Below, in pieces: positions 1,787 to 20,700 of a stretch of DNA of 25,469 bases. A program made the translations under genes and the position numbers. The notes under the pieces are model-generated. The model was not told the origin of the DNA, ran no database searches, and worked only from the letters and a program-made list of their open reading frames with translations. Every line of letters starts with the position of its first letter. The first letter of the stretch is position 1. Source of the stretch: Pigoraptor vietnamica (lineage: Eukaryota; Opisthokonta; Filasterea); the NCBI GenBank assembly GCA_943704525.1, contig CALSCQ010002178.1, positions 1 to 25,469 of the forward strand. The letters run 5' to 3'.

Positions 1787-3091
1787 TCAAAGCCACGCGT
1801 CGCGAGTGCCCATGTCGGTTACGCTCACAGTTTGCACGACATCGTCCGCGTCCCCGCGCTCCGCTGTGCTCGCACGCCGCACGCGCGGACGCCCGCGAGC
1901 ACCTGTTTCGCCCTCCGAATCGCTTCCGTCGGCGGGATGTCCGATGCGGGTGACCGCGTTGCCGTCAGTCACGTGCTCGACCGGGATGGTGTTGGTGACG
2001 GCCGACGAGAGGCGCGAAAGCGATATGTGGCTCTTGAACTACACAGTGGGTAAAATAAGCAAGTGACACCAACACATACACCTGCACACGCACGACGCCA
2101 ACACGCGCACACAGTAGTAATGCGGCACAGTAAGCAATAGAGCAGACACACAGGGACATCGCACTAGCACCACAGTAACAGAGTGACCGGCTGTGACACG
2201 ACAACGTCACACTGACACGAAGTGCCAAACAGCAGCCACAGCCTGAATAAACCGGCACTTTGCACACAGGCCAAGCGCCCATGCATGCAATGGCTCCATT
2301 AGCCCACGCACCTTCGCAGCCTTCTCCTCACGCCTGCGCGCCTCCAAGTAACGCGCGGCCTCCTTCTTTCCCGCCATCCGCGCGCGGTGCTTTGCCTTGA
2401 GACCGTAGAGGTCGCGCGCGTTAATGTCCGCCCCACCCTCCACGAGCGCCTTCACCACCTCCACGTGACCGTTCTGCGCAGGGGATCCATTCAGCCGATT
2501 GCATCCAAGCAACAACATCAACGCACCCTCGAAAGCACACAGCTGCTGCTGTCCACGACCGCCAGCGCACCTTCGCCGCTGCCATGAGGGCCGTCTCGCC
2601 GTTCAGATCTTTGAGCTCGGGATCAGCATGGCAGGCAAGCAGCAGCGACACCACCTCCGCGTGACCGTTGTGCGCGGCTGCGCAGTAAAATAAGAACTGT
2701 CATACGCTACTCACATTTCCACACGCATATAAAACGCACACACAGATTGTGAATCGGCGTGCGTTTAGTATGTGTGCGGTGTGTGTGAGAGTGCGCCTTT
2801 GTGCGGCGTGTGCGAGTATTTTTGTGTGCGAGTGTTTTTGTGTGTGTGTTTGCGAGTGTGTCACGTGTCTGTGAGTGTGTAAGTGTGTGTGCGCGCGCGT
2901 GTGTGTGTGTCTGCTTGTGTGTATTGCCGGTTTCAATGTGTTTAACGAAGCAACTTGCATGGATCCGCACCATTGATCAGTGGCGTATGGCCGTACGCAT
3001 TCGCCTCGTTCGGGTCCGCGCCCTCCGCAAGCAGCGCCTTGACAGCGGCCGCGTTGCCAACAGTCGCGAGGTCCAGTAGCACGTCGCGCAT
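1787..3091 (-). CDS. Ankyrin-repeat protein, four exons
   Basis: Exons on the minus strand are 3091-2971, 2677-2571, 2473-2312 and 2038-1787. Phases join cleanly to 213 residues. ATG is at 3091 and TGA ends at 1787. Three ankyrin repeats are plain: residues about 1-36 (VGNAAAVKALLAEGADPNE), 37-70 (TPLINAAHNGHAEVVSLLL...GETALMAA) and 71-104 (KNGHVEVVKALVEGGADINA). A Lys/Arg/Glu-rich helix (about 105-130, ARYLEARRREEKAAK) and an unstructured, acidic then basic tail follow. Introns 1 and 2 fall at the same position relative to the repeat (just before the xNGHxEVV helix), so each repeat is nearly one exon. Ankyrin repeats bind proteins; no partner or enzyme domain is visible, so function is unknown. 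Intron 1 holds TG/CA-rich low-complexity DNA. The last exon is the least certain part, supported only by a good donor (AAG|GTGCGT), an acceptor (TGTGTAG) and phase. Confidence 0.75.
2678..2970 (-). repeat. TG/CA-rich low-complexity intron 1 of the ankyrin gene
   Basis: This intron consists largely of interrupted TG, TGCG and TGAG dinucleotide-like sequence on the + strand, densest about 2760-2930. Frames reading through it give His/Thr-rich or Cys/Val-rich strings typical of simple sequence, so I treat them as non-coding. Confidence 0.6.
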
Positions 3092-3416
3092 TTCGCCCAC
3101 TCTCTCCGAGGCAAGTACCACCCTCTCGCTGTAATCGCCACACGCTCGCCAACTGTCTCACTATTACACACGCACTTCGTTGTCAATGCACGCACTGTGC
3201 CACTGCTTGGGGGTGAAAAAAAAAACACTCTGGCGTCGTTCCGTGTGTGTGCGCACACAGTCACTTTGTTTCACATTTCAAATTTCGCAGAACCAGAAAT
3301 GGCGTACTGACGACATCATGACGACAAATAAAGCGGACAAAGATGCGCACGTGACTTGACAGCTGACTCAAAGAACAAAAGTGCTGCGCTTGCCGTTGTG
3401 TCTTCTTCCCGCGAAA
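3092..3416. promoter_or_regulatory. Divergent intergenic promoter region, ankyrin gene / TMX3-like gene
   Basis: This 325-bp gap separates two start codons pointing away from each other. It contains GCACGTGAC (E-box CACGTG at 3348-3353) about 65 bp upstream of the TMX3-like start. An E2F-like TTCCCGCGAAA at 3406-3416 directly abuts that ATG. A short poly-A run lies near 3218. No open frame with protein character was seen. Shared promoter use is inferred from geometry. Confidence 0.4.
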
Positions 3417-5087
3417 ATGGCGCGCGTTGCTCTCGCGTGCGTGATCGTGTGTGTCGTGGCGCTTGCTACGCATGCCACTGCAGATGCCGACGATGGACCG
3501 GCGTTCATCGGGAGCAGCGTCGTGACGCTGACGGACGCGACGTTTGACGAGTCACTCGCGCACGGCAGCTGGTTTGTCAAATTCTACGCGCCGTGGTGCC
3601 ACTTCTGCAAGAAGCTCGCGCCCGTGTGGGAGGAAGTGGCGTCCGATCTCGAGACCCCCGACGCCGACGTGCACGTGGGCAAGGTGGACTGCACCACAAG
3701 CAGCGGCCCCTGCGACGCCCAGAACTTGCGCGGCTACCCGACCCTCCTGTTCTTCCGCAGCGGCGCGGAGAAGCCCATCTCGTACGAAGGTCCGCGCACA
3801 CGGGAGCGCCTCGTGGAATTCGCACGGCGCGCTGCGGGTCCGACCGTGGCCGACGTGCGCAACGGGAATGCGCTTCAGCGGCTGAGGGACGCCGCGGACG
3901 TCGTGTTTCTGTACATTGGGCGCCCTGCCGGCAGTGCTTATGCGGCCTTTTCAGCGGTCGCCACCGAGCAGTACGTGTCGCCGGGTCTGTCGTTTGCACG
4001 CGCGGACAGTGTCGAGGCTGTGGGGCTGAACACAGCAGGCGAAGCGCCGCTTGTCCTTGCGCTAAAGGATGGCACCTCGGTGCGGCTGGACGGTGACATT
4101 ACGGAGGAAAGTATGCGCGCGTTCTTCTCTCGGGAGCGGTTCCCGCGCGTTGCGCACATTGAGAGCGCTTCGTACGGTGCGCTGTGGGCGAAGGAGGCGC
4201 CGCTGGTGCTGCTGGTCGCCGACCCTGCGAACGCGCGCGCCACGCGCCACGCACAGGCGGCACTGCGGGCGGCGGCGGACGGCGCGGGTCCCGAGCAGTT
4301 CGCGTGGATTGACGGGGCGTATTTCAGCAACAAAGTGCGCACGACATGGGGCCTGTCGGTCGCGGATCTGCCCGTGGTCGTGTACGAGGCGGCGTCGCGG
4401 CGCGCCCACGCAGTGCTGCGGTCGCCCTCGCGGGAGGAGATTTTCACGGAGAAAGACATTGGTGCGTTTGTGGACGCTGTGCGCACGGGAAAGCAGGAGG
4501 TAAGTGTTGCCCGTGTGACGCGCACACTGTGGCTGGAAGTGAGCCTTTGTCTGACTGCGATATTTTGTTGCAGCTCACGGAGCGATCGGCTGGCGGCATT
4601 CTGGGCTTTTTCCAATCCGTACGTCACGTGCATCTCATCCGTCTGCTACAGGCGTGTCCATCCACAGAGGCATACATGGACGTCCACGCAAGCATACTTC
4701 ACCTGCATACGCACACGCACGCGAAGGAGCACCGATAAGAATTCTTTTATCTCTCTCGCCGGAGACCATTCTCTCAGTACACTCAGACATGCCTTATCTC
4801 TCCATGCATCCGCATTCGCCTGTTGCTCAACGATTTCTTTCCTTTGTCGCAGGGCCTTGAGGAGGTCAACATGGCATTCCAGGTCCGTCTGCTGTTCAGT
4901 CTGACCCTAACCGTAACCCGCAGTTTCTGTTCATTTACGACGGTCCCTCTGATGCACACTTCTTTGTACCGCACAGGCGCTCTACTCGCAGTACCCGGCC
5001 CTTGCCATTATGACCGTCGTCTTCCCCGCACTCATGATTTTCATCCTCTTCCTCATGCCCGGTGCGGGCCACGCAAAGACGGAGTAA
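3417..5087 (+). CDS. TMX3: TMX3-like transmembrane thioredoxin-related disulfide isomerase, four exons
   Basis: Exons are 3417-4499, 4574-4618, 4853-4882 and 4977-5087, all phase 0, giving 422 residues (human TMX3 has about 454). A signal peptide (residues 1 to about 22, VALACVIVCVVALATHATA) precedes a thioredoxin domain with FVKFYAPWCHFCKKLAP (CxxC at 61-64) and cis-proline RGYPT (Pro108). YEGPRTRERLVEFARR then follows, matching the YRGPRTKDDIIEFAHR region of TMX3. Two further thioredoxin-like, redox-inactive domains follow (FFSRERFPRVAH; then FAWIDGAYFSN). A membrane segment near 394-414 (ALAIMTVVFPALMIFILFL) ends in a short tail (GAGHAKTE) without a KKxx signal. The family catalyses disulfide exchange in the ER lumen. 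The active site reads CHFC rather than the usual CGHC, and an extra Cys pair (92, 99) is present. The tiny exons 2 and 3 (45 and 30 nt) are supported by good splice sites. Confidence 0.85.
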
Positions 5088-5568
5088 AGTGCTGTACTGC
5101 CGCACAAGGCAAATGAATGCCAGTGCAGCCCTCAAATGGGCATCGACAGAAGAAGTTGTCCTCACTCTACTGCCGCAGAAGGCAAATGAACGCCAGTGCA
5201 GCCCTCAAATGGGCACCGACAGAAGAACTTGTCCTCACTCTACTGCCGCAGAAGGCAAATGAACGCCAGTGCAGCCCTCAAATGGGCATCGACAGAAGAA
5301 GCTGTCCTCACTCTACTGCCGCAGAAGGCAAATGAACGCCAGTGCAGCCCTCAAATGGGCACCGACAGAAGAAGTTGTCCTCACTCTACTGCCGCAGAAG
5401 GCAGTGAGGCCATGACAACAGGTGTGGTTCGATTGCTGCGAAGCACTCGTGGCAAACCGAGGAACATACGGAACAAAATGGAAACAGCCAAATGTACACA
5501 GCCCAGTCACGGACACTTTTGCTGCATATTGCCAAAGCAAAAAGTGCAATCCGAAGTAAACAGCGGCT
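5088..5568. other. Convergent intergenic gap between TMX3-like and uL13m genes
   Basis: The 481 bp between the two stop codons hold the 73-bp tandem array (listed separately) and, from 5404 on, about 165 bp of unremarkable sequence that must contain the 3' end of the uL13m transcript. I saw no clear AATAAA on either strand. Confidence 0.6.
5092..5403. repeat. 73-bp tandem repeat, four full copies plus a partial one
   Basis: Full copies start at 5112, 5185, 5258 and 5331, each 73 bp, beginning AATGAACGCCAGTGCAGCCC (AATGAATGCC in copy 1). A partial unit (CTGCCGCACAAGGCA type) precedes them at about 5092-5111, only a few bases after the TMX3-like stop codon. Copies differ at only a few positions (CATCGA/CACCGA, AAGTT/AACTT/AAGCT), which implies recent expansion. 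Because 73 is not a multiple of 3, the frames crossing the array shift with each copy and are not genes. The array lies in the likely 3' UTR or downstream flank. Confidence 0.95.
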
Positions 5569-7098
5569 TTACTTCTTCGCTGCGGGTGCCGCTTTGGTCG
5601 GTGCTGGTGCTGGTGCTGGTGCTGCCGCTGCCGCCGCCGCCACTGCCGCCCGCCTGGCCACCTTTGTGTGCCACGGATTTGTGTGCGCAAAGGTCGCCGC
5701 CTGACCCTCCGGCACTGCAGTCTTGTACGGGATGGTGGGGGGACCGGGCATGCGCACCACGTGACTAATGTTGGCCTCATAAGGGTGGGTCGCACCCGCG
5801 AAAACATAGAGGCGATCCATCAGCCGATCGCGCCGCTTCGACTGCGGCAGCATGCCTCGCACGGCAAATTCGATGATCTGCGGATGGGGTGCGTGGACGC
5901 GTCAGACGTGCTTACGAGAGACATGGCATCGCCTCAGAGTGACGACGGTCGGCGCACAGCACACAGAGTACGCGAAAAGGGTTGCGAGAGGGTAATCGAA
6001 GGGCAGTAACCCCTTCCGGCCGGGGGCGTAACAAATGCGCGCCTGACCTTGTTGGGGGCCTTCGTGTGCAAGTCCCTTGCGGTGGTCCACTTCTGCGAAC
6101 CGGGGTAACCGGAGTACCGCACGTACTCCTTGTTGTACCATTTTCGCCCAGTGAATGCCACCTTGTCCACGTTGGTTACCACCACGTGATCGCCCACGTC
6201 CACTGCGCACGGCAAGCCAGCTCACATGAGACACAAGTGCGCACAATACACAACAACATCGCCCACGTCCACTGCGCACGGCAAGCCAGCTCACATGAGA
6301 GACTAAACACAACAACATCGCCCATGTCCACTGCGCACGGCAAGCCAGCTCACATGAGAGACTAAACACAACAACATCGCCCACGTCCACTGCGCACGGC
6401 AAGCCAGCTCACATGAGAGACAAGTGTGCACAATACACAACAACGTGCGCTTTTGCACATGACCCGAATAATTACACGAGATCCCCGCCTGTTCTGCCAA
6501 CAAGACACTCCGCAGAACACAGACAGCAAAAGGCACACGCCCCAGCCGCATGCCCACCGCCGGGTTCGTACGTGGGCTTGTACTTTCCACGCAGCAGGAT
6601 GGAGATGACCGCGGCAAGCTTCCCCGGCTGGTAGTGCGAGGCGTCGATATGGTGCCAGATGCGCCCGTGGACGCCGTGCATCTGCAGCGCAAGCGCACGT
6701 GTGTCAATAACCCTCGACAATGTGCCGTCGACACACGCACTGCACGAAAAAGGGGTCCACAAACATTCACAGCGAAGCCGAATATCAACGCATGACGGTA
6801 ACGAGACATAATCGCGGCTCAGTAGAGGGTAGGGAGGCGAGAAGGAGACACCATAGAGAGAGTGGCACTTGTTCGTCCCCGCACGCACCCGCTGCGCCTC
6901 CAGTCCCCCCTGCGCAAGGCTCATGTTCCGCGAATCCTTCCTCAATACGACCCCAGCGGAGGCTGCCGTCGTCGTCGCCTCGTCAAACACGAACACGCCC
7001 GTGTCCTTCGGCGGCGGTGGAAGCGCGCGCACTTCGCCCACGCGGTGCCCAAGCCGCTGCACATTCTTGCGCAACACAGCGCGCAAGGGATTCACCAT
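5569..7098 (-). CDS. MRPL13: Mitochondrial large-subunit ribosomal protein uL13m, four exons
   Basis: Exons on the minus strand are 7098-6889, 6681-6558, 6202-6048 and 5877-5569. They join in phase to 265 residues. The uL13 core is clear across exons 2-4: HGRIWHHIDAS, LLRGKYKPTYEPG, then VDVGDHVVVTN, FTGRKWYNKEYVRYSGYPGS, then EFAVRGMLPQSKRRDRLMDR and LYVFAGATHPYEAN. These are the same blocks, in the same order, as bacterial L13 and fungal mitochondrial MRPL23. The protein binds 23S-type rRNA in the mitoribosomal large subunit. Exon 1 adds about 70 residues (MVNPLRAVLRKNVQRLGHRV) that fit a targeting presequence plus extension. The C terminus carries an Ala/Pro-rich tail (about 30 residues, ending KAAPAAKK) absent from bacterial L13. 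The 3' splice site of intron 2 is part of a tandem repeat. The gene is divergent from the RhoGEF gene. Exon 1 is the least certain exon. Confidence 0.9.
6189..6444 (-). repeat. Four-copy tandem repeat carrying the exon 3 splice acceptor of uL13m
   Basis: Copies start at 6189, 6258, 6317 and 6376 on the + strand. The inner two are 59 bp. The outer two are about 69 bp, sharing a longer variant segment (ACAAGTGYGCACAATACAC). Read on the minus strand, each copy contains GCTTGCCGTGCGCAG, the intron 2 acceptor, followed by TGGACGTGGGCGAT or, in one copy, TGGACATGGGCGAT. This is the first 14 bases of coding exon 3. Only the copy at 6189-6257 runs into the rest of exon 3. The other three lie upstream in intron 2 as complete duplicate acceptors. 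Confidence 0.92.
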
Positions 7099-7119
7099 TG
7101 CGCCGAATATGTGCCACGC

Positions 7120-7466: not shown

Positions 7467-10400
7467 ATGTCCGGCGTCCCTGAGGTACGGCGACTGTGCC
7501 TACTCGACGTCATGTGCGCTCGTTGTTATGCACTTGTGCGTGAATTTTACACATGCATCGCGTCCCCGCGTGGAGTTTAATTTGCGGCAGTTTGCCGTCA
7601 CTTTCCGTCACATGGGTTTGAGTGGGACAGGTCGCGCGCACATTCTGACTTGCGTTGTGCGCGCAGGTGGACGGTAGTTTTGGCTTTCTGCTGGAGGGCA
7701 CCGCATCGACACTGATTTGGGTTGCCGTGCGAGACACGCACCTTACCCTCTTCAAGGTTCGTCGCTGCTGGAACAACCGTTGGGCGCCCAGTTGCGCCCG
7801 CGTGTGCGTCGGCGCATTGCGGTGTTGCCATGTGTGCACTCTGAGGCAGTGTTGTACTGTTACGCTCTCATGCTTTTGCCTTAGTCGACTCCTGCTTATG
7901 TGTTAATCGACTCCTGCTGGCGTTGTGCTGTGTTTGAGGTAATCCAATTCAGTCCCGGTTCAATTTAACGGCCCGTGTGACGCAGGATGTCGCGGCTGTC
8001 CCCGCCGGCGATCGCACGGTGCATCTGCAGCGGGGCCCTACTGGCTTTGGTCTGACGATCAAGGGGGGCGTCGACTACCGTCAGCCCGTCACTGTCGCCA
8101 GCGTCAACTCGGTGGCCGCCGCGTCCCACCTGTGGGTCGGCGACCGCATCAAGTCGATCGATGGCGCCGACACGAGTGCCATGCAGCACAAGGACGCCGT
8201 CGCCGCGCTCAAGGCTGCGGAGGGTCACGTGCGCCTTGTTGTCGAATTTGACGCCGGCGGTGGGTCACACGTGGTGTGTGCACGCTGCATGCTGTGTGGC
8301 GTTTCGTTTTGTGTGTAAGTGTCGTCGTTCCAAGGGCGGATGGATGATTACTGCGCTTCAAAGTCCATCGCTCTTCACACTTGTTACACAGTGTTATACA
8401 GCATGAGAGTTCTGTGCTAACGCGGACATTCACAGCGCGAGCCAAATTTGGGACGTGCCCCGAGGCTGTTTCCGACATGCCGGTGCTCTTCTCGTTCCGT
8501 CTGGACACGCTTGTCGCCACCGCCTGTCGCCTGCCGAACGAGAAGCCAAAGTGGGTGTTGGCGTGTGAACCTAGCTGTGGTCGGTAACACTGCCAACCTG
8601 TCTCTCGCACTCTCGCTTACTCCCTCGCTCGCCGATTCGTCGCCCCTTCATTTCCTCGCGTGTCGCCCTCACCACTGCTGCATTCTCATGACTGATGCGC
8701 TCTCCCAACACAGCCGGCCTTTCCACCGCGCCTGCCGCCTCCTCTCGCCGGACTACCCCGGGCGCATGTTCCTCATCAAGGCACCAGACGATGCGCGCAC
8801 GCTTCAGTGGCTCGAGCAGCTTGGGGCGGCTTTTGCAGAGGGTGAGGACGACGCCTGTCCGCTCTCGCCCGCGTCGCCAGGGGACTCGGCGTTTCCCTTT
8901 CCGATCATGCCGGCATGGAAGATGCCGTCCCCGCGCCCCACCCCCGCACCCACACCAGCGCCCGTCGTGACGGAGCCCAGCCCGTCGCCGACGCCCGCAC
9001 CCACGCAGCCGCAAACGCCCGTGACGTCCAAGTCACTCTCGCCGTTCGGCCGCAGTCCATCGCAGCGCCGCGCGTCCGTGGATGTGGGTGTCATGATGCA
9101 GGCCGCGTCACCGCGCACAATGCGGTCGGCCGCGTCCGCCATGTTCTCGCGCACGGACATTCACCCGGCGATCGCTGCGATGGGATTCGGCGGTGCGCCG
9201 TCCACGCGCGCGACGATTGCGGAGGTGAACGCGCAGAGCATGCCGTCGGTGGACCCGTCGCGAAGCCCCACAACACACCGCGCCTCGTTTGATGCTACGG
9301 CGCTGCTCAACACGCGCGGGGTGGGCACGCCCCCGTCGCGCTCTCCGCTGTCCATCAGTCTTCTTGCGTCCGCATCGCCAATGCCCCGCGAGGCACAGCC
9401 GCTCTCGCCGGCATCCCCGACGCGCCCGACGTCCTCGATGGGGTCCGGATCCGACACGCACGTGACCCGCCGACCCTCGACCGTGCGCGACGAGGTGGAC
9501 GCCATGCGCGCGCGCCTGGTGAAACTGGGCGATGCGAAGAAGGCGAAGGCGGCGCACGCGGTGGAGGAGATGCGACGCCGCGTGAGTGCCTGTTCACAAC
9601 ATGCGTGTTGTCGTAGCTGCATCTGTTTGTGAGTTTGTTGGGATGGACTGGTGTGCGGAATGGATAAGCTCGGATTAGTACGCTCACATTGATGTTAATC
9701 CGGTGCAGGTGGCGGCGATGGAGGAGCGGCGCGCGAAAGAGACGCAGGCGTGCCACGAGCACTTCTCGCGCAAGTACTCGTGGCTCGCGATGAAGGACGC
9801 GAGCCTCCGAGACCTCGCCGAGAAGCTCGAATTTTACCGGCAGGGCGTCATTCTCATGGCTGGTGTGTGTGTGCCCTTGGGGCTTGGGATGTGCTTGAAA
9901 GGCGCTTGTGGGGCTTGGAATGTGCTTGGGATGCGCTTGGGGCTTGGGATGAGCTTGAAACGCGCTTGTGGGGCTTGGGATGAGCTTGGGATGCGCTTGT
10001 GGGGCTTGGGATGTTCGTGTAATGCGCACGTGGGGCTTGGGATGTGCTTGAAAGGCGCTTGTGGGGCTTGGGATGTGCTTGTAATGCGCATGTGGGGCTT
10101 GGGATGTGCTTTTATTGCGCATGTGGGGCTTGGGATGTGCTTTTAATGCGCATGTGGGGCTTGGGATGTGCTTGTAATGCGCTTGTGCGCTTGTCGGGCT
10201 TGGGATGTGCTTGTAATGCGCATGTGGGGCTTGGGATGTGCTTGTAATGCGCTTGTGGGGCTTGGGATGTGCTTGTAATGCGCTTGTGGGGCTTGGGATG
10301 TGCTTGTAATGCGCATGTGGGGCTTGGGATGTGCTTGGGATGCGCTTGTCGGGCTTGGGATGTGCTTGGGATGCGCTTGTCGGGCTTGGGATGTGCTTGT

Positions 10401-13400
10401 AATGCGCATGTGGGGCTTGGGATGTGCTTGTAATGCGCTTGTGGGGCTTGGGATGTGCTTGTAAAGCGCTTGGGGCTTGGGCACGCTTTGGGTGGGGGCT
10501 TAATGCTAGGTCGCCACTGATGGCGGGCGAGAGAATGGGACTGGTGCTTATGAACCTGTCGACGAAGGGGGCGACGGTGCGTGCAACTCTATGTGTATCC
10601 GAACGCTAACTCACACGGCACTCGCAGAGCGCACTGCGACGGAGATTGACAAGACTGTCGAGGAGTTCCGCAATCGCTTCCGTGCATCTGCTCGCATTAC
10701 GCGCGCGCCGCGACTGGAGTCGGTCCGAGTTCGGGTGAGTTGTCCCTTGTCTCGAAGTGCGAGTTGTGCGTCTGTGAACGAGTAACAATTTGGCTTTGTG
10801 CGTCGCTGTGTCGTACTCGTTCTGCTGCTAAACCACGCCCACGTGCCACAGACACGCGCACCGCGGTTAAGCATCAACGAGCGCATCGAGCAGCTTGCGA
10901 AGCACAAGGCGAAGCGCTGGAACATTGCGTCGGAAATAAAGAAGACGGAGGAGACGTACGTCAGCGACCTCAGGACGCTGGAGGTGAGTGCCTGGCATGG
11001 CGCGATGGCCACGCGACCGATGCGATTACTGGACAGAGCGTGGTCGTTTGTTGGATGTTGGTGCTGTTGCAGTCCGTTGAACCGACCCTCGCCTAGGCAA
11101 TGCGCCAAGATCTCGCTGCCAACGCGGCATCGCCACGACCGCTCGTCAGCGCGGCGCAAGTGCGGGTCATTTTCGCGAATGTCGAGACGCTGCTCGGCTT
11201 CCACTCTGAGTTTCTTGCGCGGGTGAAGGAGCGCGTGGACAACTGGTTTGACGACCAGTGCATCGGCGACCTGTTTGTCGGCGTGGTGGGTGGCGGTCAC
11301 GTGGCCGGCGTCTCACGGCGGCGCGTATTGACGGCACTCGTCCATACCTCCCCTGCAGCTCAATAATCTCAAGCAGTACACGACGTATATCAACAACTTC
11401 GATGCCGCCGACGCCCTCGTGAAGCAGCTGTCGGACACTCTGCCGCCCTTCCGCGACTATCTTGCGGTGCGTTGTAGGAAAGCGACTGTTTATTAATACT
11501 TCCCCCGTCAACCCGGGATGTGCGCTGATGTGGCGCCTGTTGTATAATTTCGTGAACCCCTTGGCGTGACACGCCGATTCGCGCCTTGCTCGCAGGTGAT
11601 GCGCACGCGCAACCGCAACATTCACCTCAACGGGTTCATGCTGACGCCCATCCAGCGAATTCCGCGCTACACGCTGCTTCTCACGGGTGCGTCACCTCTT
11701 CTTTTTTTGACGTGCGCGTGCTGCTGCGATGGTGTGTTGCGACAACTAACATCCACCCTGCGCTGCACAGAGCTCCTCAAGTACACGCGCCAGGACCACC
11801 CGGATTTCCAGCACCTCTCGTCGGCGGTTGAGGGCATCAAGAGCGTCACCGAATTTTTGAACGAAGCCAAGTGGGCGGCACTGCGTTTCTGCGCGTGACG
11901 GCGTCCCTTTGACCTTGCTTTCGCTTGTCACGTCTTTTCTTGCTTTGGGCCTTTCCTTGCTGCTACTGTGCGCCCTCCACTGCGCTCGTGTGTTGCACTT
12001 GCGCTTCGTCGCTTGTTACTGTTATTATCGCCGCGTGGTCTCAGGAACGGTTTTTCTGCAGGCGAGAGGCCGAGCGCCAGGCGCGTGCTGTGGAACTCTT
12101 GAAGGGTATCAAGGACATTCCGGTACGTTGGTGCAATGCGCTGATGATAGCATGGCGCCGTCGCGTGTGCGAGCCGCGGCTCGTGTAGTTGCATCGTTGC
12201 CAACCGATTTGTGTTCTTTGAAAACCCAGGTATTGCTTAATACGACGCGAAAATTTGTGGCCGAGCTCTCGGCGCAGGAAATCCAGCTGCGGCCAGGGTC
12301 CAACCCGCCGGTGGTGTTGAAGGTGCGTGTCGCCTTCGCCTTTCACATTGGCGCCGTGTGATGCATCAGTGTTCGATGGTGTGGAGGGTTGGACCGAGTG
12401 ACACAGTTAAGTTTTCGATGGTGTGTGGAGGTTGGACCGAGTGACCTAGACGGATCAAGTGTTCGATGGTGTGGACGGGTTTTAACGTTTTTGTTCTGCG
12501 TGGACGCGAATTATATCATTGCGTGGACGTTGGCGCGTGCAGTCCTCGTGCACTGCATTATCACGCACGGTCTGCGGTGGCTGACGGAATGGCGCGCGCA
12601 GATCAAGCAGGGCGTCATGCTGCTCCTGTTCGACGACATTGTTGTCCAGCTCACGAAGACGCGCAACTTGCGAGGGGGCGTCAGGCTGCAGTTTGAGGAG
12701 GTCATGTCTGTCGCGGAAATACGGGAGGAGGACTTTGGCGAGAAATACCCGCGCGACGCAGGTGCGCACGAGCCGAGTGTATTACCCCCCCCCACTCCCT
12801 GCTTCCCTCCTCCCCTCACTGTTTTGGCCCGATGCAGCCTCCCGCTGCTCATTGATTGGACGCAGTTCATTGACGCGACGTGGTGTGCAGAGGCATCCAC
12901 AATTTTCCAATTCCAGAAGATTAGCGGCGTGCGAGCATATCGCACAAAAACCATCTCGGAGAAGGCGCAGTTCATGGCAGACCTCCGCCGCGTCCGGCGC
13001 GACTACAGCGCGCTCGCAGGGCTTGAGTCGAAGCAGCCGGCGCATGCTCCCGAGGACAGCGGCTTTGTCGTCGTCAACCGCGATCTTCTAAAGGCACGTC
13101 TTTGCCTGTTTGCTCTGAACGGGAACGCTTGCTGGTGTCGATGGACGTGTGCTTATGCATTTGATGCGACCACACCGAGCGCGCACTGTTGGATGGTCTG
13201 TTGACTTTGTATGCGACGCCTTGCAGCCTGACCCCACTGCGGCCATTCCGTCGTCGTCCTCGTTTGATCCGCTCTTCCCGATCAAGCGGTCGTTTGTGGG
13301 ATTGTTTGGCCTTGGGTCCCCGCAGGCGCCGCGCTCCCTCAAGCACTCGCGCAGCCAGAGCCAGACGTTTGCGCGCGCCGAACCGCCTGCGAATCCGAAT

Positions 13401-13912
13401 ACGCTCGTCCGGCGCGAAAGCGACAAGCCAACGTACGAAGAGCGGGGAGACCGCGCCGCGGGCGGCATCGTCCGCCGCCAGAGCGACAGGGAAGAGCAGC
13501 GCTTGCGGTCGAGTTCCGGACGCAGTCCCTCGCTGCAGAGCGCCGCCGTGCCGCCGACAGTGTACGTGGAAGGGGACGCGGCGTCTGTCCGCGCGGTCGA
13601 CTCGATGGACGATCTCCTTTCGCTTGCGGAGGTGTGCGACGTGGTGAGTCCGCTGCCCGACACGCTGTCGGACTCGTTCTCGCGCAAGGGCTCCGTCAAC
13701 CGCGCATCTCCGACGTCGTCGGTGGATTCGAGCGAGGCGGTGTCGCGCACGGATTCCCACAAAGGTAAGCGCATGAATGTCTTGCTCGCTTGCATATGTT
13801 CAGAGCGCGGACTAACGGCGGCTACCGGCAACTCCTCACAGCACCCGCTGACCTCCCCCTGGAGCTTCACTATGTCGACCCGAAAAAGATTGACTTTCTC
13901 CTCGACTGGTAA
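7467..13912 (+). CDS. Dbl-family RhoGEF with syntrophin-like split PH/PDZ module, about 19 exons
   Basis: Exons: 7467-7484, 7667-7756, 7986-8259, 8436-8550, 8714-9581, 9709-9862 (or 9864), one near 10510-10576 (5' end unresolved), 10628/10630-10734, 10852-10983, 11097-11285, 11359-11466, 11596-11686, 11771-11870, 12062-12122, 12230-12322, 12602-12761, 12891-13093, 13227-13764 and 13842-13912. All junctions except those around exon 7 are phase-consistent; total about 1,140 residues. Order: half a PH domain (to about 36), PDZ (about 45-127), second PH half (to about 205), Pro/Ser linker, coiled coil (about 430-505), DH (about 575-790), PH (about 800-940), Ser/Arg-rich tail. DH proteins load GTP onto Rho-family GTPases; the conserved DH helices are SEIKKTEETYVSDLRTLE and LTPIQRIPRYTLLLTELLKY. 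Intron 17 has a GC donor. AATAAA lies at 13931, 19 bp past the TAA. A donor overlapping the stop (G|GTAACG) with an acceptor before 13979 could give another C terminus. A short first exon of six codons is the weakest call. Confidence 0.85.
7667..8845 (+). other. Split PH domain with inserted PDZ (syntrophin-type module) in the RhoGEF
   Basis: Exon 2 encodes FGFLLEGTASTLIWVAVRDT then HLTLFK, the early strands of a PH domain. Exon 3 is a whole PDZ: VHLQRGPTGFGLTIKGG with the carboxylate loop at FGLT, LWVGDRIKSIDG, and helix B MQHKDAVAALK. Its leading His predicts class I (S/T-x-hydrophobic C terminus) ligands. Exons 4 and 5 return to PH: FSFRLDTLVATACRLPNEKP, MFLIKAPDDARTLQWLEQLG with the terminal-helix Trp. 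Human syntrophins have this same PH-PDZ-PH nesting (MSLKMAYVSKRC, then [20 protein letters not shown]). The nesting is seen in the sequence; homology to syntrophin rather than convergence is inference. Confidence 0.75.
9877..10490. repeat. 31-bp minisatellite, about 19-20 copies, in intron 6 of the RhoGEF gene
   Basis: The consensus core is TGGGGCTTGGGATGTGCTTG followed by TAATGCGCWTG, about 31 bp per unit. The 5' units are shorter and more diverged; those from about 10030 on are nearly identical. Variation falls mainly in the TAAT/GGAT/TTAT position and TGGGG/TCGGG. The array fills almost all of the intron between 9863 and about 10510. Frames crossing it encode repetitive strings only because of the repeat. 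Confidence 0.95.
10852..13093 (+). other. DH-PH catalytic unit of the RhoGEF
   Basis: The DH domain is spread over exons 9-14: IASEIKKTEETYVSDLRTLE (first conserved region), VIFANVETLLGFHSEFLARV, CIGDLFVGVLNNLKQYTTYI (joined across 11285/11359), LNGFMLTPIQRIPRYTLLLT then ELLKYTRQDHPDF. The following PH domain uses exons 15-17: GVMLLLFDDIVVQLTKTRNL, IFQFQKISG and the final helix KAQFMADLRRVRRDY. In the family the PH domain packs on DH and helps membrane targeting or GTPase contact. Confidence 0.88.
12371..12480. repeat. Short direct repeat in RhoGEF intron 15
   Basis: GTTCGATGGTGTGGAGGGTT then GGACCGAGTGAC starts at 12371. It recurs with small changes at about 12413 and, in part, at 12461. 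The unit spacing is about 42-48 bp, so this is a two-and-a-half-copy tandem duplication. It is intronic, with no visible role. Confidence 0.85.
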
Positions 13913-14430
13913 CGCTCAGCCAAACGAGCCAATAAATGACCCATGCTTGACATGTGTTGCCGAGTCTCTGTCGCAGGTCGTGGCTATTGGGGGTTTGTCC
14001 GTCACACCAAGCTGTGAGGGTGATCGACCGGCGTAGCGGTCAACCCACGGCTGTGCGTGTGGCTGAATAATGGCTGAATGTGTGCATCGATTAAGTGCCT
14101 CGGCTACGGCGGAGTGCGGCCTCTCGTGGCTGATCGTCTAGGTAACTGCCCATGCGGCCGGTGACTTCGGCTCGTAGATGGCGTCATGTCCGTCGTCACC
14201 CAAGGCAACCATTCTATGCAATGATGAACAGGCATGTGCCGTAGTGTTTTTCCTGTTACCCGGTGCCCAGACGGACCGACGAACGAATCCGGACAAGGAC
14301 GGTCACCCCGGATGACCTATGGGCGGTGGCTGTTGTGACTGCTCCTTTGTCACGCGCATCTTTCCAGTTTGCAACGCTCGAGTTGAGTTATTTTTTTGAC
14401 CCGCGTCGGCAGCAGTCGTCGCAAGCAGCG
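13913..14430. other. Intergenic: RhoGEF 3' end and 5' flank of the receptor gene
   Basis: AATAAA at 13931-13936 is a likely polyadenylation signal for the RhoGEF gene. The rest up to 14430 should hold the promoter and 5' UTR of the receptor kinase. I saw no TATA box, repeat or convincing gene. An in-frame upstream ATG at 14263 would extend the receptor N terminus by 56 residues, but these look non-coding and would displace the signal sequence. Confidence 0.5.
13931..13936 (+). terminator. Polyadenylation signal AATAAA of the RhoGEF gene
   Basis: A canonical AATAAA lies 19 bp after the TAA stop codon at 13910-13912. The position suits a polyadenylation signal, but it is a single hexamer and no transcript end is visible. 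Confidence 0.4.
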
Positions 14431-17400
14431 ATGCATTCTCCAACACGCTCCACGTGCCCCACCAGTGGCGCGTGGAAGCGGCGTGCTCCCGCACTGCGCA
14501 CACACGCGTGCACGCTCTCTCTGTGTCAGGCAGTTTGCATCGTTCTCCTTCTTGTGGGCATGGTGGGTGCTCAAATGCCTGCTATGCCGTGTGGCGCTCC
14601 TCTGCGCGACTGCACGTGTAGCGCGGACGGGCGCACTGTCGAATCGTGCGCTTTCAATCCGAGCCTCACGAGGTATGTATACGCAACTGTTATGAGCCGT
14701 GGCAGTAATTCACCGACGCTGTGTGGTGCATCGCTGCTGAATGTGTAACTGTACTCGTCTGTCAACGACCGTATGCGCTGTTCTTATTGTTACGTTTGTG
14801 AGTCGTCATGGTTGCGTTGCACTCGTATGGCGCTCGATGGCGTAATGTCGGGCGTCCATTGACACTCAATCGCTGCGTCTCGGTCACAGCCGTTGAATTT
14901 GCGCTAGTGGCACTGGCACACGCTGGAGGCCAATGGCCGGGCTCAGCCCTCGCGCAGCCTCTGCCGTGTTGCCTTGCTTGACCTGTTTGCTAGCGGTCCA
15001 GTTGTCCACCGAACCCCAGTGACACTATAATCCTAAACAGCCATTTCTCATTGCCTCCACAGGCTCATCTTTCGATCGCAAGGACGCCTCCTCGCGCCCG
15101 GCCTGTTCAACCAGCTTCCCAACTTAACGACCATGTGAGTCTCTGTGTTCCTGCACTGAATGGCTGTGACAGAGGCCCGCACGGCAGGCAGCACCTTGGC
15201 ACTGCCGGCTGTTCAGTCCGGGCGCTTCGTGGCTCCAGCGGCCACGTCCGATTGGGCGCCATGCTTTGCGCGTCCCAGCGTTGTGATGTCTACAAAATGT
15301 AGTGCAGTTCTTCACGACATGCTTAGTCAGTGCCGATGTCGTTGTCCCGTTGGGCACATGGCCGGCCTAATGGACCTCGCGTGTGCGGCGTGTGCGGGCG
15401 TGTAAGCGTGTGCGGGCGTGTAAGCGTGTGCGGGCGTGTACTTATTTGCGCGTCGGCAGTATTGGCCTATTTTGTTTCTGTTTGGGCACACATTAACGTG
15501 ATATCTGCACAGTGACCTCTCGTACAGCGGGCTGCCTGCTCTTCCCCCTGGGATATTCGACGGGTTGACGGCCCTGCAGCGAATGTGAGTGGCGTTCAGT
15601 GTGAGCGGCGTGGTATTTGAAGGACGGAATGCGCGCGCGTTTTGCAATGGATATTGGGGAGTTCCACATGTCACGCTCTGTCGCACGCTGGTGTCGCGGG
15701 ACTGGCAAGAGCGATTTTGCTGCTGTGTTAGAAGCGGATTCAGTTGCGGGCGCCTCAAAATCTCGATATGGTGCGGGTTGTACCCGTTGTCAGTGGCATC
15801 GCATGCGGTGCGTGCGGACGCAAACCCAATTTCTCATGCCTGCGATGGCGATTCTCTCTGTACGTTTTACGTGTCAATGGCGCGCGGCTCGTCTGCTTAT
15901 GCGTCTACTGTATGCAAGCGCACAGGGTTTAACTTCTAGCAATTCTCTTCTCAAAGTGCGTGCGCGCGTGTTCTGTCCGTGCTGCAGATTTTTGAGCTCG
16001 AACCGCCTATCGCAATTGCCGGCTGGCCTTTTCGATAATCTCAATTCTCTGAACACCCTGTGAGTTGCGTCTTGGTTCGGCGAATGCTTTGATTGCGTTG
16101 TTGTTAATGTCAATGTATATAGAAGTGGGTCGCTTGCGGGTCACTCACGGTGTGCAATATGCGTGTTTTCAGTTATGTGTCGGGATGTTCGCGCGCGTGT
16201 ATTTGGCGAAAAAGTGTGTTGCGTGTGTGCACGGTAGTGTGTGTGGTAACGTGCGTGCTTGTCATGGTGCGTCTTTGCGTTAGCAGTCAGTGCCGGCACA
16301 CGCCGGCTGTGGTATATATCAATGTGAGAGCGTCAGTATGCATGTGTGTGTGCGTGTGCGTGTGCGTGGTATGTAGCCGGTGCGTGTGCGTGTGCGTGTG
16401 CATGGGAGTTCGTGGGCGGATGAGTGGGGATACTGTGTCCTGTGTGCAGTGCCTGGTGTCTTGTGTGCCCGGCCCCCCATTGTCAGTCACGTGAGCAGCG
16501 CCGGTCTAGCGCACCCGGGCGAACATTATCATTAACTGCAAACTGTTGTCGAACGGTACAGGGTCATCAAGGGCAACCCGTTGTTGGATAGCGTCCCCGA
16601 AGGCTTTTTTGACCGGCTCACTTCCCTCACCACGCTGTGGGTTGATGCGTCCTCATGTGCGCTATGGTTTTTGCTGAGGCGGACCGATGTGCGTTTAACG
16701 GGGCGATGGCACTGTACTTACCACGTGCTCATCGGCCCTAGTGCTGACTGAATGAGTTGCGGGCCTGCTCACTCCGCAGCGATCTGCAAATTGCTCGGCT
16801 GCGCCCGTCGACATTCGACAGGCTCACAAATCTACATTCATTGTGAGTTACAACTCTATCGCGCGTAGAAACCGCTGCCCAACCCCTTGCCGCTTGCAAC
16901 GTATTACGACCCCGCCGGCTGTGCCGCGCATGTAATGCGTGCTTTCCGTGCTTTCCCACGTCACTGCATCCCGACCACCGGACGCGTGCATTTCACCGCG
17001 TAAGTTCTTGTGATTGACGACCTCCGGTTGCAGGACTCTCTCTGCGGCAGACGGTAACTCAGAAGTCTCCGCCGGCATTTTCGCTAATGTGACCAGCCTG
17101 CAAGTTCTGTGGGTGACGAGGCATGAAATTGGCAATAACTCAGGCGTTTGTTCGTGACAATATCCTGCCCTCTCCTCATATTTCTTTATGCTGCAGGTCC
17201 ATAAGAGGCTTTCGCGTCGTCGGCTTAATGCCGCGAGCCTTTGCTACGCTAACAAATCTCGGCTACATGTGAGTCAGCTGCGCCTGCGGATCCAATGTGA
17301 CTGAGTGTTGTTAGGTTAAAGGCCCCATGGGGACGTTTGATCCCCGACCATAGCGATTGTGCTGATGACGCCAGTTGGCAATTATTAGGGCGATATCTGG

Positions 17401-17697
17401 TTGTTCCCTGGTGCCCGCCACGCTCGACGGCGTTTTCGATGGCCTGACCTCCCTTACGACGCTGTAGGTTGATCATGTGGCTGTCGTGTCGCAATATGAA
17501 GTGTGATGAGCACGCGAGTTCATTCACATGCAGACATTGTTTTGTTGTTCACGTCCTTTCGCTGATTCAATCCTCCGCAATTAAAGGGAACTCTCCAACA
17601 ACGGGCTGACCGATGTGCCGGTGCGGCTGCTTGCGGGAATGCCGCGGCTAAACTGGCTGTGAGTGCTACCGATCTCACTTCGGGCGCTGAGCCCCCT

Positions 17698-17729
<32 letters not shown>

Positions 17730-20700
17730 GCGCCGTCACCTTCCTGCACATCACGTAGAAACGATGCCGTGAATCCAGTTACTTGAGGTCTCATCCTCGT
17801 ATGGTTCTGCTGCAGAGTGATGCGCGCGAACAGCCTTACTGTACTACCCGACAATATCTTCGATGGCACTTTAGATGCGTTCACGTGGTACGTGCGCTCT
17901 GTCGATAGTTGTCTGGTGTGTCTGGTGGACAGTTCCTCGTCTCCGTTGCCAAACCTGTTCATTCTCTTTGTAACTCCGCTCGGGTAAATCGCATTTTCTC
18001 AGATTGTGTACTGGGCACCCTTGCAGTGACGTTTCCGGAAACCCAGGATCGAAGGGTAACCTTTGCGGAAATCCGGGTAGCGTTTGCGTACCCGGAACGT
18101 GCCAGGAGTGCTTCTGCATGTCCGGATACGATGGGCCCCAGTGCCTCTCCACGAACAGCACCGGTCATGGAACTATCCGATACGCAACACCAACGACATT
18201 TGTCAGCACGCTTGCGGCGGCCGCGAATGGTGACATCGTCTATCTCGCTGCTGGCACGTACTCGAACGCGATTACGTCGGGACCAATTGTCTTGTCGAAT
18301 CGCACCGTGACCATCGCGCGTGACCCTGCGGCAGACTCCTCACCCCTCTTTCGCTGCAAGACCGTCCTGTTCGCGTCGCAGCTGTCCGTATCGAGCGCTT
18401 TCAACGTTCGCCTCGGCAGCACGGTCGTGTTTGACGGCATCACGATTTCGGGTTGTGGAAAGGGCGGCGTATCGACGCGAACTCGCTCTGCTGTTGAGGT
18501 CGGATTTGACGAGAGCGTCACCGATTCTAGGAATGGATACACGACGAGGAGCAGGGTGACGTTTGCTAATTGTATCTTCACCGGTAGGTGGCTTTGACCC
18601 TCAGGAAAGCAATGTGTTTCGCCCGTGCATGACTTTAGATCTGACTCTCGTCTCGCGACTGTGTCAGTCGTCTGTTTAATGCTGTTGTTGGCCGTTGATG
18701 TCATCCAGGCAACGGAAAGGTTTTGGACGTGCGCAATGGCGGGCAGGTTGCTTTTATCTCGTCGACCGTAACAGGTGCGCACGGCTTTTTTTTCTGCTGG
18801 GTAACATCGCACCCGCGCACTTCTCTGCAGATTGTGATGGTTGAAATTGCGAGCCATTCCATTACGCTAATTTTTGGCCATTGTTCGTAAACAGCTAACA
18901 ATATCGTGTGCTGCACGGCGTCGACGTTCCTTCTTCCGATTGAGATGATAGCCATCGCTGGGAAGGTCACGATGCGGGATACGGTGATTAGCGGTACGTA
19001 TTTTGTGTTGTGCGGTGTGGAGCGGAGGCTTCAATTCTAGCAGATTGCCAGCGCCTAAGTGGTACATTTACGCTGCGTCCGACTGCAGACAACAACGGGC
19101 ACCTCTCGCTCATGCTCGACAATGGCGGTGGTTCAGTTGTTGAGATGCGAAACACAAACATTTCCAGTGGGTTTAGCATGCTGTTGCATTATTATTGTAG
19201 TGTCGGCGGGTGTGAAATCCGGAAAATGCGAGATTGCGCCTGTTGCGACGAACCTTGACGTGACTGATCATGACGCTTTGTTGGAATCCTTAGACAATGC
19301 TGGTCCAGCCGACGTGAAGGGGTCTGCCAACACCAAGATGCTTGTCGCCGCCACGGGTACCCTCACGTCTTGCCACATCTCCGGTGAGCATTCAGTTGTT
19401 GGCTTTTACTTTAATCTATCCTGGTCGTTACTCGCAAGCATGAAACGCTGCTCTGTTTCGTTTGCCACAGTGTAGTAGTGCCTTGCTCACCGCACAGCCG
19501 TGTGGGTCGCAAGACTCTTCACCATAGTGTTCTTGACGGCTTCAACTGTCAATGCGCAGGCAACCGGTACACTGTCATGATGATATTTTCGTCGGCAGCG
19601 CAAATATCAAACTCGACAATGGACGCTGGCGCAAGGGAGGGTGGGCATGTGCGAGCGGCCGTCTGACTCAGTCACCTGTATGTTAGCCACTTTGACACAT
19701 TCGTGCAATAAGCTTAATTGCGTATTCCGTGAGTATCATTGGGAATCTGCGGGACGTTTGCATGATGTCACGCACGTGGGTCTTGTCTGCGCGGCCACTG
19801 CATCTGCCGATTACTCAAAATAATCACAGGTGAACCGCCGAGTGGCAACGATTTTCTGCGGCTGTCCAGCGCGGCTACCTTGACAATAACGGACACCATC
19901 TTCAACGGTGCGATAGTTGTCTATTATGCTCGGCGGTTACTATGCGCATGGGTGTCGAGGTGCACATGGCGTGAAATTTTACCTCACCGTGTTGTGACAG
20001 ACTTTCCAATGTTTTCAATCGTCTCTGTCACCAATCGTCTTGGTTACTGTGTGTGCCGGCGGCCGGCCGCCTAAATTTAATCTTATGCCCGAACAGACAC
20101 AAGAGTGCTTTCGCGCGCGATGATATATGCAACGCGCGCAAGCAGTATCACACTCACGCGGGTGACATTTCGAGGTGGGGACCATTTCGTTGCCTGTCCT
20201 ATTGATTGATGCGCTGTCATACTGCAGCGACGTCTAGTTGTTCACAGTATTGTAACTCAAGCCCCACCTGGTCGGTGTCGCCATTCTTGATTGCTTACGC
20301 TTGTCGCGTTCTCGCCCAATCAACTTGGCTGTGCATATCATGCAGGGGTAAATGCGCAGCAGACACTCTTCGTTGACGCCACTGGGACAGTCGTCACTGT
20401 CACTGACAGTTTCTTTCAAGGTGTGTACCGTTGGCCGAACTGAAGTTGAAAGCTGATCTCGACGCCATATGCCCATTCAACAATCCCATTCCCTTTTTTT
20501 GCAGATTCAAACGTGCGATATGTGGTAAATTTCGCTGTGGCAGTGCCCTTGGACATCACCGAGGAGACATTGGGCGTGCCAACAATCTGTGGGTACGCTG
20601 GTCACGGTCACGTTCGCCACATCACCAACACTTATTTCAACCACGCGGCATCCATTGTAAACGAGTACGTTGTCTGATCTCGCTCTGCGCCTGTTCAACC

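Follow-up and report, generated by a model that had tools for sequence, protein, structure and literature searches.

The window analysed here, a 25,469-nucleotide stretch of Pigoraptor vietnamica DNA, carries on its forward strand between 7467 and 13912 what we read, with a probability of roughly two in three, as the gene for a RhoGEF in which a PDZ domain is nested in the beta3-beta4 loop of an N-terminal PH domain and would act with it as a receptor-docked membrane module. The reading frame, the PDZ, the DH (Dbl-homology) domain and the PH after the DH are established computationally, and the evidence supports a single gene whose product is a RhoGEF of the DH-PH kind, with a class I-type PDZ between PH-like flanks at its N-terminus. 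The predicted order of domains would be a PH interrupted in its beta3-beta4 loop by the class I-type PDZ, a Pro/Ser-rich linker, an extended helical stretch, the DH and the PH that goes with it, and lastly a tail rich in Ser.

The phase-consistent exon chain proposed in the sequence-only reading was borne out as a single open protein of 1143 amino acids, encoded by 18 exons on the forward strand without internal stops and beginning with the start codon in exon 1 (7467-7484, residues 1-6). Of the 18 exons, 17 were of sufficient length for scoring and had coding-like codon use, with 0.16 to 0.93 bits per codon in the chosen frame, and all 17 introns scored negatively in all three frames; it should be noted that the training set took in 15 of the 17 scored exons. 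Exons 6 and 7 (9709-9862 and 10628-10734), which connect both ends of the gene, were held out and scored 0.68 and 0.32, respectively. The exon 14/15 junction can be read in two ways, giving 1143 amino acids or, with an alternative start of exon 15 at 12602, 1122 amino acids, and the score for the DH-associated PH profile described below is identical in both (11.8 bits). The shorter reading has a more typical donor, while the longer exon 15 is favoured because its 19 extra codons are in frame with a score of 0.11 (matched by 42 of 2045 likewise open intron windows). The donor of exon 16, after 13093, is GC instead of GT. Exons 17 and 18 (13227-13764 and 13842-13912) encode a Ser-rich low-complexity C-terminal tail and end with a TAA stop codon; a likely polyadenylation signal, AATAAA (13931-13936, forward strand), starts 19 bases past this. 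A search of Rfam gave no match.

The same region might instead hold two genes. The first would encode a short PH-PDZ protein that stops around exon 5 or 6, and the second, for the coiled coil, DH and PH, would have its start at an in-frame ATG shortly before exon 7. Such an ATG is present (10591-10593) and is open into exon 7, and exons 6 and 7 are separated by a 604-base minisatellite with a 31-bp repeat (9878-10481, forward strand) which occupies most of intron 6. We consider this division very unlikely, as exons 5, 6, 7 and 8 splice in frame, the held-out scores of exons 6 and 7 indicate coding sequence on either side of an interval that is non-coding by codon use, and an unspliced exon 6 reads into the repeat before meeting a stop. 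Furthermore, no forward-strand AATAAA is found from 7467 to 10934, and the only one from 7467 to 14432 besides that at 13931 is located at 10935, within exon 8. The single gene that we prefer encodes a long charged helix-like region (residues 421-532) across exons 5-7, with a helical hydrophobic periodicity that 13/1000 shuffles equalled when the region was taken whole and 72/1000 and 15/1000 when its two parts were taken separately. This region is possibly a coiled coil.

The Dbl-homology domain was confirmed. It is encoded by exons 8-12 (10852-10983, 11097-11282, 11359-11466, 11596-11686 and 11771-11870) and spans residues 567-745 (10924-11862), matching the full Pfam profile (PF00621, positions 1-180, E 1e-42). 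The domain aligns over its full length with those of ECT2, P-Rex2 and collybistin and has the conserved blocks which surround the catalytic residues, with 'TE..Y' and 'NE.KR' present in each of these proteins, while the Thr-Pro of 'LTPIQRI' is common to P-Rex2 and collybistin (the Thr is absent in ECT2). When the DH was compared with solved structures, the best 60 of 65 matches included ECT2 (E 5.5e-24), ARHGEF12 (E 8.6e-10) and, in 49th place, Tiam1 (E 5.6e-9), and among these listed matches it appears closer in sequence to ECT2, P-Rex and collybistin than to Tiam.

This ranking bears on a possible origin from a Tiam-type Rac exchange factor whose PDZ left its place next to the DH and was relocated into the PH at the N-terminus. 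Tiam1 and Tiam2 contain a PH, a coiled coil, a PDZ, a DH and a PH, with the PDZ separate and immediately before the DH, and this set of modules is identical to the one predicted here. TIAM1 is also listed among the protein families that made their first appearance in ichthyosporeans, filastereans and choanoflagellates (PMC4265756). Against this stand the 49th place of the Tiam1 DH, behind ECT2, and the Pfam search, which found neither a Tiam-specific nor a Ras-binding domain. Membership of the Tiam group was rejected on both counts, and we regard a Tiam origin as scarcely credible.

Exons 13-16 (12062-12122, 12230-12326, 12543-12761 and 12891-13093) encode the DH-PH linker and a second PH at about residues 795-915. 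This gave 11.8 bits with a DH-associated PH profile, a score reached by 0/2000 shuffles; six known members left out in turn, two of them closely related, scored 18 to 74 bits. A beta7-helix motif at residues 889-908 (12935-12994) scored 11.3 bits (9/5000 shuffles). The domain was, on the other hand, not matched by Pfam (E up to 10), and neither a general PH profile (241/2000 shuffles) nor the beta2-beta3 motif (979/5000 shuffles) was significant. On balance the second PH claimed in the sequence-only reading was upheld, and the protein has a PH directly behind its DH, as Dbl-family RhoGEFs do.

At the N-terminus, the class I-type PDZ lies wholly inside exon 3 (7986-8259, residues 37-127) and covers residues 48-123 (8019-8246; Pfam PF00595, E 2e-12). 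It has a GFGL loop and an aligned His opening helix B, the latter being a class I hallmark of PDZ domains, in agreement with the class proposed earlier. The top syntrophin in a comparison with known PDZ domains was gamma-1, in the 11th of 223 rows (E 1.5e-8), behind DLG4, InaD-like, GRIP1 and PDLIM-type domains with small differences in bits. By this comparison the PDZ is no nearer to syntrophin domains than to InaD-like, GRIP or PDLIM ones.

The flanks of the PDZ were compared with PH domains one half at a time. The second half of the proposed split PH starts in exon 4 (8436-8550, residues 128-165) and ends in exon 5 (8714-9581), which also encodes the Pro/Ser-rich linker to about residue 420 and the start of the helical region. 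This C-terminal half, which has a PH-like strand-plus-helix end, scored 6.3 bits with a PH profile (0/1000 shuffles), with 1/2000 shuffles as good in another profile test and a weaker 10/200 with a larger PH panel. Beta7 and the C-terminal helix are placed at residues 186-205 (8772-8831), where the beta7-helix motif gave 9.4 bits (7/5000 shuffles; the lowest of 20 left-out known PHs gave 10.2) and ranked second of 1124 20-mers, the best two being residues 889-908 and 186-205; the windows of this and the beta2-beta3 motif were picked after the profile tests had been run.

The first half, proposed to hold beta1-beta3, is encoded by exon 2 (7667-7756, residues 7-36). Its beta2-beta3 motif WVAVRDTHLTLFK (residues 24-36, 7718-7756) scored 7.1 bits with 22/5000 shuffles and ranked second of the 1131 13-mers in the protein, behind residues 709-721, a match inside the DH which we take for chance. 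The motif stops at the final codon of exon 2 and the PDZ match is confined to exon 3, and the PH-like elements occupy the predicted places. A weak local profile match (11/1000 shuffles) falls in the expected region of the model (positions 20-34), and a further profile test gave 8/200. Two other tests were not significant (375/2000 shuffles and 44/178 decoy segments; 69/500 shuffles and 43/178 decoys), and Pfam PH did not match this half alone (E up to 1). The N half of syntrophin, from a solved split PH, did worse in the motif test (1053/5000) and better in both of the tests where ours lacks significance.

Joining the two halves gave 5.9 bits, compared with 20 to 76 for 16 known PHs each left out in turn and 6.3 for the C half alone, and the N half adds nothing to the local profile. 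The split PH had no clear match to the DH-associated PH profile (59/2000 shuffles), and a pairwise comparison of the joined PH with the alpha-syntrophin split PH was not significant (68/1000 shuffles as good). An HMM search of both halves, suggested earlier as a check, went against the nested fold, as Pfam PH matched neither half, separate or joined. The proposal of a PH interrupted by a PDZ is supported by the PH-like C half and the beta2-beta3 motif and not by Pfam or two of the N-half tests.

These negative results are also what would be expected if residues 1-43 merely extend the PDZ and the segment behind it is PH-like or an incomplete PH, giving a PDZ-PH-coiled coil-DH-PH RhoGEF with no nesting. 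We think this unlikely: the first half has the ungapped beta2-beta3 match and the weak profile match at positions 20-34, the C half of 85 residues would leave scant space for beta1-beta3, and a genuine syntrophin N half does worse in the motif test, even if better elsewhere. Judging from the sequence, the flanking halves likely fold together as one PH with the PDZ nested inside. There are precedents: human alpha-1-syntrophin has its split PH at residues 6-86 and 171-268 with the PDZ between them at 87-170 (PMC3754965), and a crystal structure of P-Rex1 DH-PH-DEP1 was obtained with lysozyme inserted in the beta3-beta4 loop of the PH (PMC11668296).

If nested, the split PH and PDZ would most likely form a single membrane module, in which the PDZ would bind the C-terminal tail of some receptor or channel in the membrane and the PH face a phosphoinositide, and the protein would settle only where tail and lipid coincide. 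The helical region may dimerise the protein or keep the DH closed in an autoinhibited state, and docking would then free the DH for GTP loading of a Rho-family GTPase beside the receptor. The protein is most likely a membrane-anchored exchange factor predicted to sense receptor tail and lipid jointly, and its earlier description as a scaffold linking receptor C-termini to Rho activation is a reasonable one. A more tentative suggestion, possible rather than probable, is that the PDZ-in-PH arrangement had an independent second origin here, in a RhoGEF of a probably single-celled eukaryote, as a coincidence detector for receptor tail and lipid. By analogy with the split PH of PLC-gamma2, which binds Rac2 (PMC4358224), and the PH of p190RhoGEF, which binds active RhoA (PMC6767298), the nested PH of such a protein may also sense the active GTPase and produce local positive feedback. 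Should the fold be true, the PH-PDZ supramodule would be a reusable means of coupling lipid to receptor tail beyond the syntrophins, wired directly to Rho activation, and the invention would be dated or duplicated outside the dystrophin complex; should it not, this is another PDZ-bearing RhoGEF.

Among known proteins, alpha-1-syntrophin (PDB 1z87) is similar in having an N-terminal class I-type PDZ between two PH halves and differs from the protein here in being without a DH, and in the syntrophins the PH-PDZ module is followed by a second PH and then the SU region (PMC3754965). Pfam found no syntrophin-type second PH or SU here, where the linker, helical region and DH-PH are found instead, and syntrophin membership was rejected. 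Because the DH-PH replaces the syntrophin second PH and SU region, the protein is classed from its predicted domains as a Dbl-family RhoGEF and not as a syntrophin. The earlier term 'syntrophin-type' survives as an analogy of layout, and fails for the PDZ, which is not syntrophin-specific, for the PH halves (68/1000) and for the second PH and SU.

The closest DHs in solved structures (best 60 of 65) include those of ECT2, P-Rex1/2, collybistin (ARHGEF9) and ARHGEF4, and we know of no PDZ inside a PH in any of these. P-Rex proteins begin with the DH-PH, followed by DEP, PDZ and phosphatase-like domains, and this order rules out membership. ARHGEF11 and ARHGEF12 (PDZ-RhoGEF and LARG) have a free-standing N-terminal PDZ, then an RGS-like domain, and a C-terminal DH-PH. 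They resemble our protein in the N-terminal PDZ and C-terminal DH-PH and differ in their more distant DH, and membership was rejected as no RGS-like domain was found between the PDZ and DH (Pfam, E up to 1). PH domains are also interrupted by other domains in PLC-gamma and ROCK, where the inserts are not PDZ domains (that of ROCK is a C1) and neither protein is an exchange factor. The split PH of PLC-gamma holds an SH2-SH2-SH3 insert (PMC4358224), and P-Rex likewise combines DH-PH with PDZ domains (PMC11668296). Searches by tblastn gave no confirmed relative for the whole protein among bacterial and archaeal contigs (12 pattern matches) or for a 226-amino acid DH piece among viral contigs (5 pattern matches), and no PDZ-in-PH RhoGEF is named in the titles and abstract openings of the publications among the matches listed, a set outside which most subscription literature falls. 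The parts of the protein are ordinary, and their combination seems unusual.

We read 7467–13912 of the forward strand as a RhoGEF gene of 18 open exons and 1143 amino acids with a single stop at its end; its introns are GT-AG in sixteen cases and GC-AG in the one that follows 13093. An AATAAA starts at 13931, 19 bases 3′ of the stop; the only other forward-strand AATAAA in 7467–14432 is at 10935, within exon 8. We trained a codon model on this gene minus exons 6 and 7. The 17 exons long enough to score, 15 of them in-sample, ranged from 0.16 to 0.93 bits per codon in their reading frame, and the 17 introns were negative whichever frame was used (-0.14 to -1.43). Exons 6 and 7, left out of the training, were coding-like (0.68 and 0.32 bits per codon), and because they connect the PDZ end with the Dbl-homology (DH) end, a single predicted gene is the better reading, in keeping with the one exon chain drawn in the sequence-only reading. 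Intron 6 is mostly a 31-bp minisatellite (9878–10481, about 19 copies).

Some 370 bases with a TG repeat separate the inferred starts of this gene and a split ribosomal protein L13 gene, probably organellar, which runs away from it (5569–7101, reverse strand, three stretches matching PF00572) and has a 59-bp repeat between its stretches (6248–6421, about three copies, 98% matching). A thioredoxin-domain (PDI-like) gene lies at 3360–4670 on the forward strand, with a 73-bp repeat downstream that is open in overlapping frames (5095–5403, about four copies, 96% matching) and ankyrin-repeat exons on the opposite, reverse strand (2207–3157). The long gene at 14400–25469 is truncated where the window stops, and its domain matches suggest a receptor kinase. 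They comprise a weak leucine-rich one (E 0.086), a PMP-type repeat just under the cut-off at E 0.00056 and, after these, two PK_Tyr_Ser-Thr pieces (E 3e-4 and 1.5e-4, both under cut-off). A run of 26 C occurs at 17699–17724.

The claimed DH domain is borne out by a Pfam RhoGEF match (residues 567–745, E 1e-42) and by the five alignments listed, to ECT2, P-Rex2 and collybistin/ARHGEF9 (three), each of which spans the domain. ECT2 (5.5e-24), collybistin (4e-22) and P-Rex2 (4.3e-22) were the closest solved structures among the matches listed, whereas the Tiam1 DH was distant (rank 49 among the best 60 of 65 structure matches). The PDZ (Pfam, residues 48–123, E 2e-12) carries a GFGL loop and a helix-B His, the mark of class I domains, as had been claimed. 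Its best rows were DLG4, InaD-like, GRIP1 and PDLIM PDZs; the gamma-1-syntrophin PDZ was only 11th of 223 (E 1.5e-8), and there is therefore no pointer to syntrophin descent.

The predicted second PH, claimed to follow the DH, had no Pfam match (E up to 10), and neither the general PH profile (0.4 bits, reached by 241/2000 shuffles) nor the beta2-beta3 motif (3.6 bits, 979/5000) was significant there. We accept it because of its place after the DH, a profile of six DH-associated PHs (11.8 bits, 0/2000 shuffles; the six, two of which are closely related to each other, gave 18 to 74 bits when each was withheld from the profile) and the beta7-helix motif (11.3 bits, top of 1124 20-mers, 9/5000 shuffles), noting that all motif p values are optimistic as the motifs were picked after earlier PH tests. 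Along the whole protein (102 windows) the DH-associated profile peaks at this PH.

The finding would be unusual if a PH were indeed split around the PDZ, and we therefore give all tests of that claim. Pfam matched neither half nor the two joined. Against a 16-PH profile the joined halves scored 5.9 bits and the C half alone 6.3 bits (each 0/1000 shuffles), with 0.3 bits for the N half alone (11/1000); known PHs left out one by one gave 20 to 76 bits, and the joined syntrophin split PH 20.8 bits. The model positions matched, 20–34 by the N half and 72–98 by the C half, are in the order expected for one PH. Half-profiles gave 6.0 bits for the C half (1/2000 shuffles, 0/169 decoy segments) and -1.3 bits for the N half (375/2000 shuffles, 44/178 decoys), compared with 2.8 bits for the syntrophin N half (4/2000). 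In global profile alignment the observed score was reached by 8/200 shuffles for the N half, 0/200 for the C half and 4/200 for the syntrophin N half. A larger PH panel weakened the window's halves (N half 69/500, C half 10/200) but not those of syntrophin (9/500 and 0/200), and 43 of the 178 segments taken from the RhoGEF protein itself scored at least as high as the N half. The DH-associated profile on the joined halves was reached by 59/2000 shuffles.

With the same optimism in the p values, the beta2-beta3 motif WVAVRDTHLTLFK (residues 24–36) scored 7.1 bits (22/5000 shuffles, rank 2 of 1131 13-mers), where known PHs, 17 in all and each withheld when scored, ranged from -2.1 to 25.8 bits and the syntrophin N half was not significant (1053/5000). 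The beta7-helix motif at residues 186–205, in the C half, scored 9.4 bits (7/5000), slightly below the minimum of 20 left-out known PHs (10.2 to 31.2), and the top two of the 1124 20-mers are exactly both predicted PH ends. From these scores we consider the C half to be PH-like and the N half probably so, and judge it likely, at about three in four, that both close into one predicted PH fold. The nesting claim stands in part: the C half agrees with it, the N half is mixed in the shuffle tests, and Pfam finds no PH.

The N half stops past a beta3-like strand, its final motif residue being the final codon of exon 2, while exon 3 contains the whole PDZ match and exons 4–5 the remainder, and the PDZ would therefore sit in the beta3-beta4 loop of the putative split PH, the loop that holds the insert in syntrophin and PLC-gamma PHs. 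The human alpha-1-syntrophin PH is described as split at 86/171 around the PDZ (PMC3754965), and a P-Rex1 crystal structure is reported with lysozyme put in the PH beta3-beta4 loop (PMC11668296).

In the mechanism we propose, the PDZ and lipid would place the protein at the membrane, the helical region (residues 421–532) may dimerise or restrain it, and the DH would catalyse exchange on a Rho-family GTPase. The periodicity of the helical region was reached by 13/1000 shuffles for the whole and by 72/1000 and 15/1000 for its parts. Full-length P-Rex1 is reported to be inactive in vitro and DH-PH alone active, with autoinhibition in numerous other GEFs (PMC11668296). The p190RhoGEF PH is described as sensing the GTPase directly (PMC6767298), and the PLC-gamma2 split PH as binding Rac2 (PMC4358224). 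Feedback through a GTPase-sensing PH in the window RhoGEF would therefore be a testable extra.

A PDZ and DH-PH occur in one protein in ARHGEF11/12, Tiam and P-Rex. The P-Rex PDZ is described as joined to DH-PH (PMC11668296), and TIAM1-type proteins have been reported from before animals (PMC4265756). The window RhoGEF would be composed of known parts, PDZ with DH-PH and PDZ in PH, in a combination that we did not find in the open-licence literature, its PDZ probably sitting inside a PH as it does in the syntrophins.
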